Source: Sedimentisphaerales bacterium (GTDB taxonomy: Bacteria; Planctomycetota; Phycisphaerae; Sedimentisphaerales; Anaerohalosphaeraceae). From it: 50,263 bases of DNA. The position numbers and the translations under genes are program-made. The DNA is taken from positions 1 through 50,263 of the forward strand of contig JAFGPC010000161.1 in the NCBI GenBank assembly GCA_016926155.1. Reading direction: 5' to 3'. The notes below the pieces were generated by a model. The model did no database searches, was not told the DNA's origin, and saw only the letters and a list, made by a program, of their open reading frames with translations. Below are positions 4 to 10,906 of the stretch, in pieces. Within the stretch, counting starts at the first letter, position 1, and each line of letters begins with the position of its first letter.

Positions 4-76
<73 letters not shown>

Positions 77-5200: not shown

Positions 5201-6316
5201 TTATTGTGGCGGCAGTGGTGGCGGAGCAACTCCAAATAGCGATGTTAAATCGCTGACTTGCGACGCAGGAGTCCAATTGGCCATCCCCTGGCACCAGATG
5301 AGTGTACCCCGAGTCAATTGACCGTTCTGGATATAGGGCTTGAGGGCATCCACTTCAAATGGTCCATATTGTTGTCCGTTAATAGCCAGATAGAACTGCT
5401 TTTTCTGCGGCAGTGGCGGAGGGGTGGCAGGTTGCTGTTGGGGCTGCTGGGTGGCCTGACCGGCACCCATGGCTGAACCCATCTGATTGGCCATGGCAAA
5501 TCCCATACCCATCCCCATGCCCCCAGCAGCCATTCCGCCAGGATTTTTGGCAGCTTCTTCCATGGCATTGGCTGTCTGGAATTGGGTGTATTTATGAAGG
5601 TCGCCGATGATACCCATACTGGCACGTTTGTCGAGAGCTTTTTCCACCTCTTCCGGTAAAGAGATGTTCTCGACAAGCATTTTAGTCACATCAATGCCAT
5701 AATCTGCAAATTCGGTGCCGATCTTGCTTGTGATAAACTGGCCTAATTCATCATAGTTGGCCGCCAGATCGAGGACTGGAATCTTGCTTTCCCCAATAAT
5801 ATCGGCAAATCGGGAAATGATCATATTGCGAAGCTGATCGGTCACCTCATCCGTGGTAAAGTGCCCATCCGTGCCGACAATCTGTCGAATGAACTTTCCT
5901 GCATCGCTGACCCGTATAGCATACGTACCAAAAGCCCTCAGCCGGACAGGGCCGAACTCAGTATCGCGAAGTGTGATCGGATGCTTGGTACCCCATTTCA
6001 GGTCGGTGAACTGACGGGTGCTGATAAAGTAGACTTCCGCCTTGAAGGGACTGTGGAAACCGTATTTCCAGCCCATCAGCGTCGACAGGATCGGCAGATT
6101 GTCGGTCTGCAGGGTATACATGCCCGGCTGGAACACATCGGCAAGCTGGCCTTTATTGACGAAAGCAGCCATCTGGCCTTCCCGGACGGTCAGTTTCGCC
6201 CCCATTTTAATCTCATTATCCAGGCGATTGAAACGATAGACCATCGTGTTGTTGCTAGGATCGGTCCACTCAATAATGTCAATCAATTCGCCGCGTAGTT
6301 TATCGAACAAGCCCAT
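5201..6316 (-). CDS. SPFH-domain protein with C-terminal GYF_2 domain
   Basis: Residues about 20-250 match the SPFH/band-7 type seen in YdjI-like ('virion core protein'-labelled) proteins. There is no N-terminal membrane segment. A Gly/Met/Ala/Gln-rich linker (about 255-305) leads to a GYF_2 domain (about 308-356) with the motif YGPFEVDAL and a WCQGMANWTPASQV stretch, predicted to bind proline-rich peptides. The protein ends in a proline-rich tail (APPPLPPQ) that such a domain could itself bind. It has a strong GGGAGG Shine-Dalgarno. The zinc-ribbon gene follows 22 bases after its stop, so they form a two-gene unit. Family members form membrane-associated oligomeric scaffolds; the exact role is unknown. 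Confidence 0.85.
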   Translation of the reverse strand: MGLFDKLRGELIDIIEWTDPSNNTMVYRFNRLDNEIKMGAKLTVREGQMAAFVNKGQLADVFQPGMYTLQTDNLPILSTLMGWKYGFHSPFKAEVYFISTRQFTDLKWGTKHPITLRDTEFGPVRLRAFGTYAIRVSDAGKFIRQIVGTDGHFTTDEVTDQLRNMIISRFADIIGESKIPVLDLAANYDELGQFITSKIGTEFADYGIDVTKMLVENISLPEEVEKALDKRASMGIIGDLHKYTQFQTANAMEEAAKNPGGMAAGGMGMGMGFAMANQMGSAMGAGQATQQPQQQPATPPPLPQKKQFYLAINGQQYGPFEVDALKPYIQNGQLTRGTLIWCQGMANWTPASQVSDLTSLFGVAPPPLPPQ

Positions 6317-6503
6317 AGTACACCTCCCTAAGGTAACATCTCCACCCGGAATGCCCGGTTGTCTGTATTTCCAATTCTAAGATGCAGAAACTACGTACAT
6401 ATTCTACTGACGTAGTAGTGTCTCCGCAAGAGATAGACGCAGAAAGGAGTAAAATGTGACAAATCGATTAAGAACCGGAAATGGCTTTAGTCTGTTGTTG
6501 AAT
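6317..6503 (-). promoter_or_regulatory. intergenic leader of the SPFH/zinc-ribbon pair
   Basis: This gap separates the Lnt-like gene from the SPFH gene. It holds a 7-bp inverted repeat, ACTACGT at 6390-6396 and ACGTAGT at 6410-6416, that could be an operator or a hairpin. On the minus strand TTGTCA is a possible -35 box, but no convincing -10 follows at the right distance. No gene is seen in it. Confidence 0.3.
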
Positions 6504-7904
6504 TTATATTCCTGCAAAATAGACCACAGTACATCCGATCAGAAATACAATACAAAAGACAACCGGCCAGTGGCCAAAGCGGCTGAAGAGAGAAATTCCT
6601 TCATAAACAGGAATCTCGGCCACAATCACGCCCGGCCCCTGACGAAAATGGTCCATGGATGCAAGGAGCTGACCATTTGGACTAACGATCGCGCTGATAC
6701 CGTTTGAGGCAGCCCTGACTATGCCATAATTAGATTCGATTGCCCGATGAATACTGTTTTGCAGATGTGCTTTTTTGACAGCACGCCAATCCAATGTAGG
6801 GACCGCAACTATTCCTATACCCTTCATTCCATAGCGACGAGACAAATCCGTAAAGTTGTCATCCTGACAGATCATCCCCCCTACCCGGATACCTTCAATA
6901 TAGATCTCTTGCAGTTGGCCATCCCCGGCTGGAAACGGCTCAAAGGGAGTCAGATGTGTTTTCACATAATTGCAAAGGACATGCCCTGTGTCCGACAGGA
7001 ACAGAATTCGATTATCCTGCTCATCATAATTGTAGTATCCGATAATTTGGAAGATGTGATGCTTTTGGGCTAAATCAGCAAATCGCTTCAGCCACTCTGT
7101 TCGGTTTTTTTGGCCAAATTCGAAGGCCATTTCAGGAGAAACCACCAAACGTGCTCCCTGCTGGGCAGCCAGAGCCACTTTTGATGCGTATAATTCCTCA
7201 AATCCTTCCGGGGAGGTTGGATCAGCCAATTCAGATGTTTCTTCATGAGCCCATCCGATGGCTGCTACGACAAGTTTTGACTTAGCCAAATCTGTTCGAA
7301 GTAATACGATCGGCCCACCGCCCAAAACAGCCATAATACCCACTAAGAGAAATACATGGACTCTTGAAATACTTTGAAAAAGAAGATTTACAAATGAAAC
7401 CTGTAGAAATCCCACGAAAAATACGATCCCCGTGATTCCGGTTATACTGGTGAACCAGATCAACCGAGGATAAGCGGACCAGCAGCGACCCAGAGACTGG
7501 GCTGTGCCCCACATGGGAACCAGCGTAAAATTCAACCAATCGATCACGACAAGTACCGAAGCAAAGGCCATAGAACCAATGATCGTTCCATGTCTTGCCA
7601 GAGGAACACCAAGCATGACATCCGCAACCATAACAGTTGTCAATACAGCTATTAAAATTGCGGTAATAGGCGCTGGCAGTCGCAAAACCAGCATCTGAGG
7701 CAAAGTGAATGCCAAACCCATATAAAGGCCCATCAGAAAAAGTCCTTGACGTCCCGGTTTGTACTTCTTGTCAAGGATCAGAATCCCAAGAAATCCCATC
7801 AATTGCAACGGAGCCAGAATTCCCCAGAGATTTCCCGCTGCCATAAGCATCCCCCCGCCGCATCCCGCCGCACGATACCTCCACTCCTCATGTGTCCGAC
7901 TCAT
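6504..7904 (-). CDS. apolipoprotein N-acyltransferase-like membrane protein
   Basis: The first 205 residues contain about six hydrophobic segments. A carbon-nitrogen hydrolase (nitrilase) domain spans about 210-440, and one more membrane segment closes the C-terminus, which is the Lnt layout. The catalytic triad is visible: Glu258 (SPEMAFE), Lys315 (NYVKTHL) and Cys346 (MICQDDN). Lnt adds the third acyl chain to lipoproteins in the inner membrane. At 466 residues it is slightly shorter than E. coli Lnt. It lies under an apparent MarR operator next to an SGNH hydrolase, so it may be a specialised paralogue rather than the housekeeping Lnt. A strong GGAGG site precedes the ATG. Confidence 0.85.
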   Translation of the reverse strand: MSRTHEEWRYRAAGCGGGMLMAAGNLWGILAPLQLMGFLGILILDKKYKPGRQGLFLMGLYMGLAFTLPQMLVLRLPAPITAILIAVLTTVMVADVMLGVPLARHGTIIGSMAFASVLVVIDWLNFTLVPMWGTAQSLGRCWSAYPRLIWFTSITGITGIVFFVGFLQVSFVNLLFQSISRVHVFLLVGIMAVLGGGPIVLLRTDLAKSKLVVAAIGWAHEETSELADPTSPEGFEELYASKVALAAQQGARLVVSPEMAFEFGQKNRTEWLKRFADLAQKHHIFQIIGYYNYDEQDNRILFLSDTGHVLCNYVKTHLTPFEPFPAGDGQLQEIYIEGIRVGGMICQDDNFTDLSRRYGMKGIGIVAVPTLDWRAVKKAHLQNSIHRAIESNYGIVRAASNGISAIVSPNGQLLASMDHFRQGPGVIVAEIPVYEGISLFSRFGHWPVVFCIVFLIGCTVVYFAGI

Positions 7905-7928
7905 GGCTACCTCCTTATTACGTCTTAT

Positions 7929-7946
7929 TAGTTTATATATGAACTG
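7929..7946 (-). promoter_or_regulatory. candidate MarR operator, Lnt-like gene promoter
   Basis: On the plus strand the site reads TAGTTTATATATGAACTG, two changes from the perfect palindrome at 9017-9034, and is followed by the same TTAAA tail. It lies 25 bases before the Lnt-like ATG. On the minus strand TTAACA precedes it and TAAGAC follows with a 17-base spacer, so it probably covers the core promoter. Confidence 0.55.
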
Positions 7947-7964
7947 TTAAATCATAAAAGGGGG

Positions 7965-8933
7965 TTATATTTTCTCATCAAGTAAATCCTTTTGAATAAT
8001 GCCTACGATCTGTAATAAAAACAACCGCCGAATTGCATCATAGCCTCGTACATTGGGATCTTCGATATTGGTATGGTACCAATGCCCCGGATCCTCCTTA
8101 CGATATGTATTTCGCCACCAATCCGTACAATGGAAACCATGTCCCATGAATTCAGCATGCAAATCCACCAGATGGACATTGGCATACTCATCACACAACT
8201 CTCGAATCTTCTGATTGGTCAATGCCAATACTATTATACAATCAGGCCATCGTGGCAGACCGACAATCTGAGGATCACCCACCCCATCCGTCGGATCGTA
8301 GATATTGGCCAGGAATATCTGACAGCCCCCGGGAAACTTTTCGGTTACTCTCTGAAGTATTGTTCGTAGGCGTTTCTTGATATTACCTGTCCATTCAATG
8401 GCCTGTTTAGAAGTGCAGCCATACATCGCTCCATCCACCGGTTTGCTTCGACCATAATCATGTATCAGGTCATTCCCACCGGACGTGATTACGACAATAC
8501 CATACACCTCTGAATCATATTGTGGTATGCATGGTAATTGCTGATTTATGTGCTGTTGCGTAGTCGTATAATCCTGCGCCAAGTTCAACATTTTCAAATG
8601 GGGAAGGATTACGGATAGATCTTTCCCCTTCATGTCCGGATAGAATGTATCTAAGTTGCTAGAAAGAAGTTGGATATAACTTTTTTCTTCGGGCACACCA
8701 AATCCCCTGGTCACACTATCTCCCAATCCCAGCAAGACAACCTGCCGCTGAGTCCAGGGAGTGTTAAAAGGTCCGGAAGGAACACTCGGGCCGGCCGGAC
8801 CGGATCCTATTGGTAGTCGGCGAGTAGCCAGATGTAATCGCCAGCCTATGTATCCGCCAAATGTCAAAATCGGAAGAAGTGTCAGGATCAGTATACGCCA
8901 CCGGAAAGAATACCATCGTAACTGTGTTTTCAT
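7965..8933 (-). CDS. SGNH/GDSL-type hydrolase, membrane-anchored or exported
   Basis: An N-terminal hydrophobic segment (about residues 13-29) anchors or exports the protein. A linker rich in Gly, Pro and Ser precedes the SGNH fold. Block I is LGLGDSVTRG with nucleophile Ser73, block III is SGGNDL, and a DPGH motif near the C-terminus can supply the catalytic Asp/His pair, followed by DPNVRGYDAI. Such enzymes are esterases, lipases or deacetylases; the substrate cannot be read from the sequence. Its promoter region carries the perfect copy of the palindrome shared with the marR and Lnt-like genes, so the three probably respond to one signal. Confidence 0.85.
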   Translation of the reverse strand: MKTQLRWYSFRWRILILTLLPILTFGGYIGWRLHLATRRLPIGSGPAGPSVPSGPFNTPWTQRQVVLLGLGDSVTRGFGVPEEKSYIQLLSSNLDTFYPDMKGKDLSVILPHLKMLNLAQDYTTTQQHINQQLPCIPQYDSEVYGIVVITSGGNDLIHDYGRSKPVDGAMYGCTSKQAIEWTGNIKKRLRTILQRVTEKFPGGCQIFLANIYDPTDGVGDPQIVGLPRWPDCIIVLALTNQKIRELCDEYANVHLVDLHAEFMGHGFHCTDWWRNTYRKEDPGHWYHTNIEDPNVRGYDAIRRLFLLQIVGIIQKDLLDEKI

Positions 8934-9016
8934 GATCCGCCCCTTTCCTTTATCCCGGAAACCAATCTATGTGAATGGTTAACAAATAATTCTTTACACG
9001 CAGAACCATCGGATAT

Positions 9017-9034
9017 TAGTTCATATATGAACTA
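9017..9034 (-). promoter_or_regulatory. candidate MarR operator, SGNH hydrolase promoter
   Basis: A perfect 18-bp palindrome, TAGTTCATATATGAACTA, lies 84 bases before the hydrolase ATG. On the minus strand TTAATA precedes it and TATCCG follows with a 17-base spacer. It is the best copy of the three-site set (7929, 9017, 9585). Confidence 0.65.
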
Positions 9035-9086
9035 TTAAAGCCGGAAAACACAATTTCGATTCCTAATGAGTTCCCTTTGTAATTTT

Positions 9087-9566
9087 CTACGCCAACGTAT
9101 TGATGCATGTGCGTATTTTTTCCAGCATTTGAATTAGTTTTTTTTGCTCAGCAGGCTTGAGTACGGCGATCACATCCCGGACCTTGCTTGCGTATTCCGG
9201 CTCCACACGCTCCAGAACACGTCGGGCCTTGGCAGTCAAAAGGATGTTATTATAACGCCGATCCTCGGGATCCGTCGTGCGTTTCACCAGTCCATCTCTT
9301 TCGAGCCGATTCACAAGGGAAGTTATATTGGCCCGGTTGACCAGCATCATGTTGCTCAGTTGGGCCTGGGTAAGTCCTTGGTCAGATACAGACTGATATT
9401 TTAAAAGCATGAGAAGGTTGAGTTGCACATCCGTCAGCGCGTATGGTTCCAGGAAACGGACTGCCTGTTTTTTCATGCAGGTACTGGTAAAGTAAATATT
9501 CAACAGGGCTTCATGTTCCCGGGAGGCAAACGGTTTTCGAAGTCCTAATTCACGCGCTAATGTCAT
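9087..9566 (-). CDS. MarR-family transcriptional regulator
   Basis: A 159-residue winged helix-turn-helix protein. The recognition region LTQAQLSNMMLVNRANITSL and the wing around LVKRTTDPEDRRYNN with the DxR signature are typical of MarR. Long helices at both ends would form the dimer interface. No cysteine pair of OhrR type stands out, so a small-molecule ligand is more likely than peroxide sensing. The ATG at 9566 follows a GGAGG site; an earlier ATG out of frame lies between them. A palindrome related to those before the two downstream genes overlaps its own promoter, implying autoregulation. Confidence 0.93.
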   Translation of the reverse strand: MTLARELGLRKPFASREHEALLNIYFTSTCMKKQAVRFLEPYALTDVQLNLLMLLKYQSVSDQGLTQAQLSNMMLVNRANITSLVNRLERDGLVKRTTDPEDRRYNNILLTAKARRVLERVEPEYASKVRDVIAVLKPAEQKKLIQMLEKIRTCINTLA

Positions 9567-9584
9567 GACATACCTCCACTTATA

Positions 9585-9603
9585 TAGTATATATCATTTA
9601 CTA
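9585..9603 (-). promoter_or_regulatory. candidate MarR operator, marR-type gene promoter
   Basis: The plus strand reads TAGTATATATCATTTACTA followed by TTAAA, a degenerate version of the palindrome at 9017 with TAGTA/TACTA ends and the same tail. It lies 19 bases before the regulator's ATG. On the minus strand TTAATA and TATAAG flank a 17-base spacer, although that -10 sits so close to the ATG that the exact core promoter is uncertain. Confidence 0.5.
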
Positions 9604-9652
9604 TTAAATTATAATCTGAACACAATACCCCTTCAAACGGGATCGGCCAGAT

Positions 9653-10906
9653 TCACTGTAATGGATTTTCGTACCAGAAAACACCCAGGCCTTTTCTTTT
9701 GCCCTGCGAATCAGGCTCACTTTCTTCACAGGTCAGAACATCCAGATCTCCATCGTCATCCAGATCCAGCAGTTCCAACCGGTCAAATTTGATTCCCTCC
9801 GATCCGCTGATATCGTGGGCCGTCCATTCGTTTTCCGCCGGCTCCTTTTCATAAGACAGCCACATCACACCTCGACGGACGCCATCCGCTCCTTCACAAC
9901 TGAAAACAACATCCATTCTTCCATCCCGGTCAATATCACCTACCGCTGGGGCTTTAGCATTCCCTGTTCCGGTTGGAAAAATAATCTCCTGCTCAGTCCA
10001 TCGCAAGCCGGTCTTATCCAACCGTCGAAACCAGAGAATCCTCTGCTTATCAGGAGTCCGGGCGGCCACAACCGCATCAGAAAATCCATCCCAATCCAAA
10101 TCCGCCAGTCGCATGAACATTACTTCCCAATCCTGTCCACCGATAAAATGATTCTTCCACGGTTGAGACTGGGAAGGACCGCGACCGGGATTGTCCAGCC
10201 AGCGACATCCACGCAGATGTCCCTTTCTGTCCGTTGTTACAATGTCCTCATCCCCATCCCCATCCATATCCGTGGTAATCAAAGACATAATCCACCCGGC
10301 TGGACATACAGGATGCCATTGATATTGATCCACATCCCGTGGATCCTCGGGAGATTCCAGCCAGCCGATTTGGGCCCCCTGCCCCTTGGCGCCGACGACA
10401 AGGTCTGTCCCCCTTTGTCCATCTACCTGCATCGGAAGACAATACATGTAGGCCATCTTGCCCTCGATTCTGCCCAACGGTTGTTGTCGCCAAGCAAACG
10501 AATTAAGCCATTGCCGTCTATCCGCAGGCCCCCAGTGCACAAACATTGTTTTCGTATTACCTTCACAGCACGTAACCACATCCATCGATCCATCTTTATC
10601 CAGATCGACAAAAACCGCATCCTCAACTGATGGAGTCATCCCAACCGTAACCGCAGGCCATGGTGCTCGTACCTTTCCCGGCCCAGGATGGAGATATAGC
10701 CTTGTAATCCCCCCTTCTTCCCAGCCGGTAACCATATCCATATGACCATTCTCATCGATATCTGCCAATCGCACCCCATCGGCTCCTTTGGAGATGTCGT
10801 CGATTACATGACGGTTCCATGCTCCCTCCAAAAAAGCCACCCTACTATTCATCATTATTAAAAAAATAATGGTTCTTACGAACTTGAGATGTCGAATGCT
10901 TGCCAA
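9653..10906 (-). CDS. secreted FG-GAP/VCBS repeat protein
   Basis: A beta-propeller protein built from repeats carrying the calcium-binding DxDxDG loop: DIDENGHMD, DLDKDGSMD, DMDGDGDED, DLDWDGFSD, DIDRDGRMD and DLDDDGDLD are visible, with one degenerate copy between the second and third. It ends in WYENPLQ, a usual ending for this family in Planctomycetota. I prefer the TTG at 10906 (417 residues): a GGAAGGG site sits about 8 bases upstream and the product begins with a basic then hydrophobic signal peptide. A TTG at 10927 is the alternative. Likely exported; possibly adhesion or polysaccharide binding. It diverges from the serine hydrolase gene with only 58 bases between starts. Confidence 0.82.
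   Translation of the reverse strand: MASIRHLKFVRTIIFLIMMNSRVAFLEGAWNRHVIDDISKGADGVRLADIDENGHMDMVTGWEEGGITRLYLHPGPGKVRAPWPAVTVGMTPSVEDAVFVDLDKDGSMDVVTCCEGNTKTMFVHWGPADRRQWLNSFAWRQQPLGRIEGKMAYMYCLPMQVDGQRGTDLVVGAKGQGAQIGWLESPEDPRDVDQYQWHPVCPAGWIMSLITTDMDGDGDEDIVTTDRKGHLRGCRWLDNPGRGPSQSQPWKNHFIGGQDWEVMFMRLADLDWDGFSDAVVAARTPDKQRILWFRRLDKTGLRWTEQEIIFPTGTGNAKAPAVGDIDRDGRMDVVFSCEGADGVRRGVMWLSYEKEPAENEWTAHDISGSEGIKFDRLELLDLDDDGDLDVLTCEESEPDSQGKRKGLGVFWYENPLQ

Follow-up and report, generated by a model that had tools for sequence, protein, structure and literature searches.

To our knowledge, few regulons are known in Planctomycetota. The DNA analysed here (the window, 50,263 bp) is a single contig from the 5.0-Mb genome assembly of a planctomycete and encodes on its minus strand, in this order, a MarR-family regulator, an SGNH hydrolase and a Lnt-like membrane protein, each gene preceded by a palindromic sequence. 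The locus raises the question of whether the three genes form one small regulon under the control of their own MarR protein, as a first-pass annotation of the sequence had proposed, and, if so, what such a regulon might be for. The features on which the argument turns are as follows.

6504-7904, minus strand: Lnt-like membrane protein with a carbon-nitrogen hydrolase domain (466 aa; CN_hydrolase 1e-21)
7929-7946, unstranded: predicted Lnt operator, TAGTTTATATATGAACTG on the plus strand, two mismatches to TAGTTCATATATGAACTA, 24 bp before the start of the Lnt-like gene (23.3 bits)
7965-8933, minus strand: SGNH/GDSL-like hydrolase, conserved second gene of the cluster (322 aa, hydrophobic N-terminus; Pfam Lipase_GDSL_2 4.5e-13)
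9017-9034, unstranded: predicted operator of the SGNH gene, TAGTTCATATATGAACTA, an 18-bp palindrome without mismatch, 83 bp upstream of the SGNH start (25.0 bits)
9087-9566, minus strand: MarR-family regulator, first gene of the cluster (159 aa; Pfam MarR_2/MarR 1e-12)
9585-9603, unstranded: predicted marR operator, imperfect 19-bp palindrome TAGTATATATCATTTACTA with one extra base and an ACTRTTAAA tail

Predicted operators confined to one gene cluster

Operator scores were obtained with a symmetric weight matrix built from relatives only, the window being excluded, and applied to the window and to the regions around orthologues of the regulator; the genome-wide scan was done by pattern matching. 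The first-pass annotation had correctly identified the perfect palindrome at 9017, no match to which appeared in 100 dinucleotide shuffles of the window. It had also described three near-identical sites, which is true of the copies at 9017 and 7929 and untrue of the one at 9585, a 19-mer by virtue of its extra base. The marR site has poorer symmetry and fits the family motif once one base is dropped, whereupon it scores 21.1 bits, the highest-scoring unrelated gapped position in the window reaching 13.3 bits. The asymmetric tail noted at all three sites proved to be common to them and peculiar to them: the genome contains the tailed form TAGT-N9..12-ACTRTTAAA at 7929, 9017 and 9585 and nowhere else.

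Many random copies of the palindrome elsewhere would have spoken against a regulon. With up to three mismatches allowed, the whole 5.0-Mb genome holds no copy beyond those at 9017-9034 and 7929-7946, and the proposal of a regulon survives this search; the identity of the sites and their genome-wide uniqueness are direct observations. Further members of the regulon in this genome were sought with a relaxed two-mismatch pattern, which matched at 11 places compared with 17 for a control pattern, and two near matches with a single mismatch elsewhere in the genome were rejected as members, both lying inside coding sequence. We also rejected a terminator or RNA hairpin at the palindromes, which are AT-rich and are followed by TATATA instead of a run of T, the marR sites moreover lying at the predicted start of transcription.

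Cluster proteins and a probable link to membrane lipids

The regulator contains a MarR winged-helix domain (Pfam MarR_2, 48 bits with a cut-off of 27; MarR, 46.6 bits with a cut-off of 24.6). Orthologues (48-59% identity, E <= 1e-26) are present in 41 of 98 genomes, this one counted, and among them the recognition-helix region, residues 74-89 (MLVNRANITSL..R.E), is near-invariant. Two metagenome-assembled genomes (MAGs) labelled Deltaproteobacteria and Syntrophorhabdus also hold an orthologue, with the same operator.

In the SGNH protein, GDS of block I and GGND of block III are invariant in 10/10 orthologues (the window protein and those at L102, L105, L107, L117, L118, L121, L124, L125 and L073). 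Block V reads EDPN in all ten, Asp taking the place of the expected catalytic His of DxxHPN, and DxxH is absent; in this SGNH-like family the catalytic His would either be supplied from elsewhere or the chemistry would be different. The Lnt-like protein scores below the equivalog cut-off for Lnt (TIGR00546, 83.7 versus 132.9 bits), and contig C53 of this genome encodes a canonical Lnt that scores above it. Judged by these scores, the cluster protein is a second, diverged Lnt paralogue. Its residues E258, K315 and C346 are invariant in 10 orthologues, and from their positions we take them to correspond to the catalytic Glu-Lys-Cys triad of E. coli Lnt.

What the regulon might be for is best approached through the genes that accompany the regulator across species, namely those for Lnt-like proteins, SGNH and alpha/beta hydrolases, and PlsY-like, Aas/LplT-like and plasmalogen-synthase-like proteins. 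Behind marR in planctomycetes are found alpha/beta hydrolases similar to the phospholipase BipL, a PlsY-like glycerol-3-phosphate acyltransferase and an LplT-Aas-like fusion. Among the genes behind marR in relatives there is also a FeeM-like acyltransferase domain, and marR of the deltaproteobacterial MAG is immediately followed by a gene for an Aas-type acyl-ACP synthetase/acyltransferase. Seven relatives have in this place a protein of one family, ∼1,350-1,565 aa long and split in one of them. The four members scanned contain BcrAD_BadFG in two stretches together with DUF2229, and one also HGD-D; judged by domain content, these giant proteins are possible plasmalogen synthases. Four such BcrAD_BadFG/DUF2229 proteins, of 1,471-1,565 aa, lie at L104:2364-7061, L106:6988-11577, L129:466-4959 and L103:2052-6467, in the same direction as the MarR orthologue. 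Lipid acyl enzymes recur in differing combinations, with phospholipid acyl turnover as the common thread, and since lipid-type genes recur behind the regulator across species, we favour, at somewhat better than even odds, a role for the regulon in membrane phospholipid acyl-chain turnover, probably as part of membrane-lipid upkeep.

Phenolics, antibiotics and oxidants are often sensed by MarR regulators, which lends some weight to another reading, that of a generic MarR system for xenobiotics or oxidative stress, with the lipid genes as incidental neighbours. The regulator reaches no NCBIfam equivalog cut-off, and its best PDB and NCBIfam matches are a low-scoring mixture of just such phenolic-, antibiotic- and oxidant-type MarR regulators. 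Neighbours with no obvious lipid link do occur in some relatives, among them an M28 peptidase, DUF2339, ankyrin repeats and small membrane proteins. However, no recurring efflux or detoxification gene was seen behind the regulator, whereas lipid acyl enzymes recur there across phyla, and comparison of the orthologues shows that the regulator is without any invariant cysteine. We consider a generic stress system unlikely.

One of the small membrane proteins encoded behind marR is strongly conserved (MFITLL..FVVSTIVVLFF..KYLKFAIYVTGISSG; L111:611-1006, L126:7237-7638 and six more), the one member scanned giving no Pfam match.

Among known MarR repressors the closest theme to a lipid-linked regulon is that of FabT, although by its profile score the regulator is not FabT. 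FabT of streptococci, enterococci and lactococci is an autoregulated MarR-family dimer encoded beside the lipid genes that it controls and binding palindromes in the promoters, an arrangement predicted here as well, and acyl-ACP enhances its binding (PMC9083066). In contrast to FabT, our regulator scores 31.1 bits where the NCBIfam FabT cut-off is 200, a distant similarity only, and fab genes are absent from the window cluster and from those recurring neighbours of orthologues that were scanned. With MarR, SlyA, HpaR, MhqR and PchR it shares a winged helix, a length of ∼160 aa and, by prediction, a local regulon and a near-palindromic 16-18-bp operator in the promoter of its own gene.

Two further lipid systems bear comparison with the genes behind marR. 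Plasmalogen synthase belongs to the 2-hydroxyacyl-CoA dehydratase enzyme type (PMC12838417), and in the four giant proteins scanned the BcrAD_BadFG and DUF2229 domains are of this type, which invites comparison with the PlsA/PlsR loci of Clostridium and Enterococcus. The regulator neighbouring PlsA/PlsR in facultative anaerobes is, however, TetR/AcrR-like (PMC9702350), whereas here it is a MarR protein, and the window cluster has no gene of plasmalogen-synthase type. The Aas-type protein behind MarR in the deltaproteobacterial MAG and the LplT-Aas-like fusion of planctomycetes recall lysophospholipid reacylation by Aas/LplT, but the proteins behind MarR score below the NCBIfam equivalog cut-offs. 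In the literature searched we found neither regulation of aas by a MarR protein nor a MarR link to plasmalogen genes, and none of four exact operator variants appeared in its open-access part, 5.39 million papers, which leaves out most subscription journals.

A wider and decidedly tentative proposal is that this MarR family, in Planctomycetota and Desulfobacterota-type bacteria, could be a lipid sensor coordinating deacylation, reacylation (Aas/LplT, PlsY), acyl transfer by a second Lnt-like protein and, in some species, plasmalogen synthesis, and that at second promoters it may act inside a long spacer. Planctomycetes of the Sedimentisphaerales type widely carry this MarR clade, which matches no curated family and for which an operator and a regulon are now predicted. 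Its apparent tie to membrane phospholipid turnover, which extends to plasmalogen-type genes, offers a testable entry into the control of membrane lipids in Planctomycetota.

Promoter architecture

The position of the operators relative to the promoters bears on how the MarR protein might act. The likeliest promoter of marR lies just upstream of its operator.

9608-9636, minus strand: probable marR promoter TTGAAG-17-TATAAT (10/12 consensus bases), the operator starting 4 bp downstream of the -10 hexamer

This is the only 10/12 match in 6300-9800, a region in which the overall number of consensus hits equals chance. The marR promoters of 28 relatives combine a TTGACA-like hexamer with a spacer of 15-17 bp and TATAGT or TATAAT as the -10 hexamer, which the operator overlaps, the first TAGT (or TAAT) of the operator being the end of the hexamer. 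The second site in relatives has a different setting: in the consensus, TTTTTTTGRNAAAA precedes the operator and TATATA follows it, and a conserved T-tract containing TTG lies at its flank. Over 20 aligned second sites this TTG (15-19/20 per base) stands ∼19 bp from a conserved WATATA abutting the palindrome, and the whole looks like an operator within a long spacer.

The first-pass annotation had offered a uniform geometry, in which 17 bases separate TTAAYA from a TA-rich hexamer at each of the three genes, the palindrome filling this promoter spacer and the repressor sitting between -35 and -10. The spacing holds at marR only, where TTAATA-17-TATAAG matches 9/12 consensus bases; 17 bp after TTAAYA stand TATCCG at SGNH and TAAGAC at Lnt, and the TA-rich hexamers of these two genes (TAATAT/TAATAA) are only 14 bp away. 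Even at marR this arrangement would put the start of transcription in the ribosome-binding site, with the better promoter just upstream, and the overlap of the operator with the -10 hexamer in the 28 relatives also speaks against it. The look of a ∼19-bp spacer at the second operator, lying as it does between T-tract and WATATA, is a point in its favour, and on balance we regard a palindrome-filled 17-bp spacer at all three genes as improbable.

The same second sites are what might be expected if the regulator were an activator, or a dual regulator, at some promoters, with the palindrome in a long spacer after the fashion of MerR-type promoters. Against this, the marR promoters have normal spacers of 15-17 bp, in this window neither SGNH nor Lnt retains the -35-like TTG, and MarR proteins repress mostly by occlusion; activation of this kind would be surprising here. 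The simplest mechanism would be that RNA polymerase is occluded around the -10 hexamer and the start of transcription, and we infer both direct binding and repression rather than activation.

Comparative support for a local regulon

Strong evidence comes from scoring the relatives. An operator is present before marR in nearly all holders of the orthologue, and a second before the next gene in about half. With a leave-one-out matrix, 29/34 marR upstream regions reached at least 13 bits, compared with 0/34 when the same stretches were read backwards. The stretch just behind marR, which lay outside the training set, reached this score in 19/35 genomes, compared with 1/35 backwards. Other upstream regions did so in 12/232 cases, 11 of which belong by position to cluster genes or the marR promoter region, leaving one elsewhere. 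Both operators are present in the Syntrophorhabdus MAG (24.6 and 23.8 bits), and a single one, of 23.3 bits, in the deltaproteobacterial MAG. The gene order marR-SGNH-Lnt is kept in eight relatives and marR-Lnt in six. That the palindromes are chance AT-rich repeats or functionless copies of a duplicated promoter is very unlikely given their location and conservation across genera and phyla, compared with the backwards-read controls, even though the sites are AT-rich and a reversed control pattern, at up to three mismatches, also gives a few matches per genome.

Regulator, operator and neighbour genes thus travel together, the usual comparative evidence for a regulon, and this coupling is itself observed. 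Because the pairing of regulator and operator is kept across dozens of related bacteria, a local regulon is very probable, and with this strong comparative support we put the probability that marR, SGNH and Lnt form a local autoregulated MarR regulon at roughly 0.85. The proposal of the first-pass annotation, a single small autoregulated regulon with sites before all three genes, is in this respect strongly supported by comparison of sequences. Features weighing against it are the degenerate, 19-bp operator of marR itself in this genome, the weak promoters of SGNH and Lnt (at most 8-9/12 consensus bases) and the lack of a second operator in some relatives. The circuit, very probably real, is of the ordinary autoregulated MarR type, and we did not find this one described in the literature searched.

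In the scheme that we propose, a MarR dimer would bind the AT-rich palindrome TAGTTNATATATNAACTA (core AGTT-8-AACT) in its own promoter and in the promoters of the genes directly behind, and would there block RNA polymerase. In relatives the bound dimer would cover the -10 hexamer of marR (TTGACA-15..17-TATAGT), and in this genome the sequence just downstream of TTGAAG-17-TATAAT. A small amphipathic ligand would alter binding and so adjust deacylation, reacylation and acyl transfer in the turnover of membrane phospholipids; that the ligand is probably an acyl compound or a lysolipid is a guess, and its existence, like the physiological role, is inferred.

Candidate sites found away from the cluster in relatives (G047:C31, G045:C37, G061:C20, G097:C69, G035:C207 and G039:C2) were rejected, being in genes or weak-scoring, and among the out-of-cluster sites examined there were no consistent further members of the regulon. 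One relative (G023, L122:6934-11128) retains the SGNH and Lnt genes, but a MarR orthologue was sought there and not found; upstream of its cluster lie genes for a DNA methylase-like protein and for what may be a restriction-type protein, and an operator-like site lies farther away. Near marR in L103, L105, L107, L116, L126, L131, L137 and L139 two operator matches overlap, shifted by exactly 15 bp and with a half-site in common, an arrangement that might accommodate two adjacent dimers.
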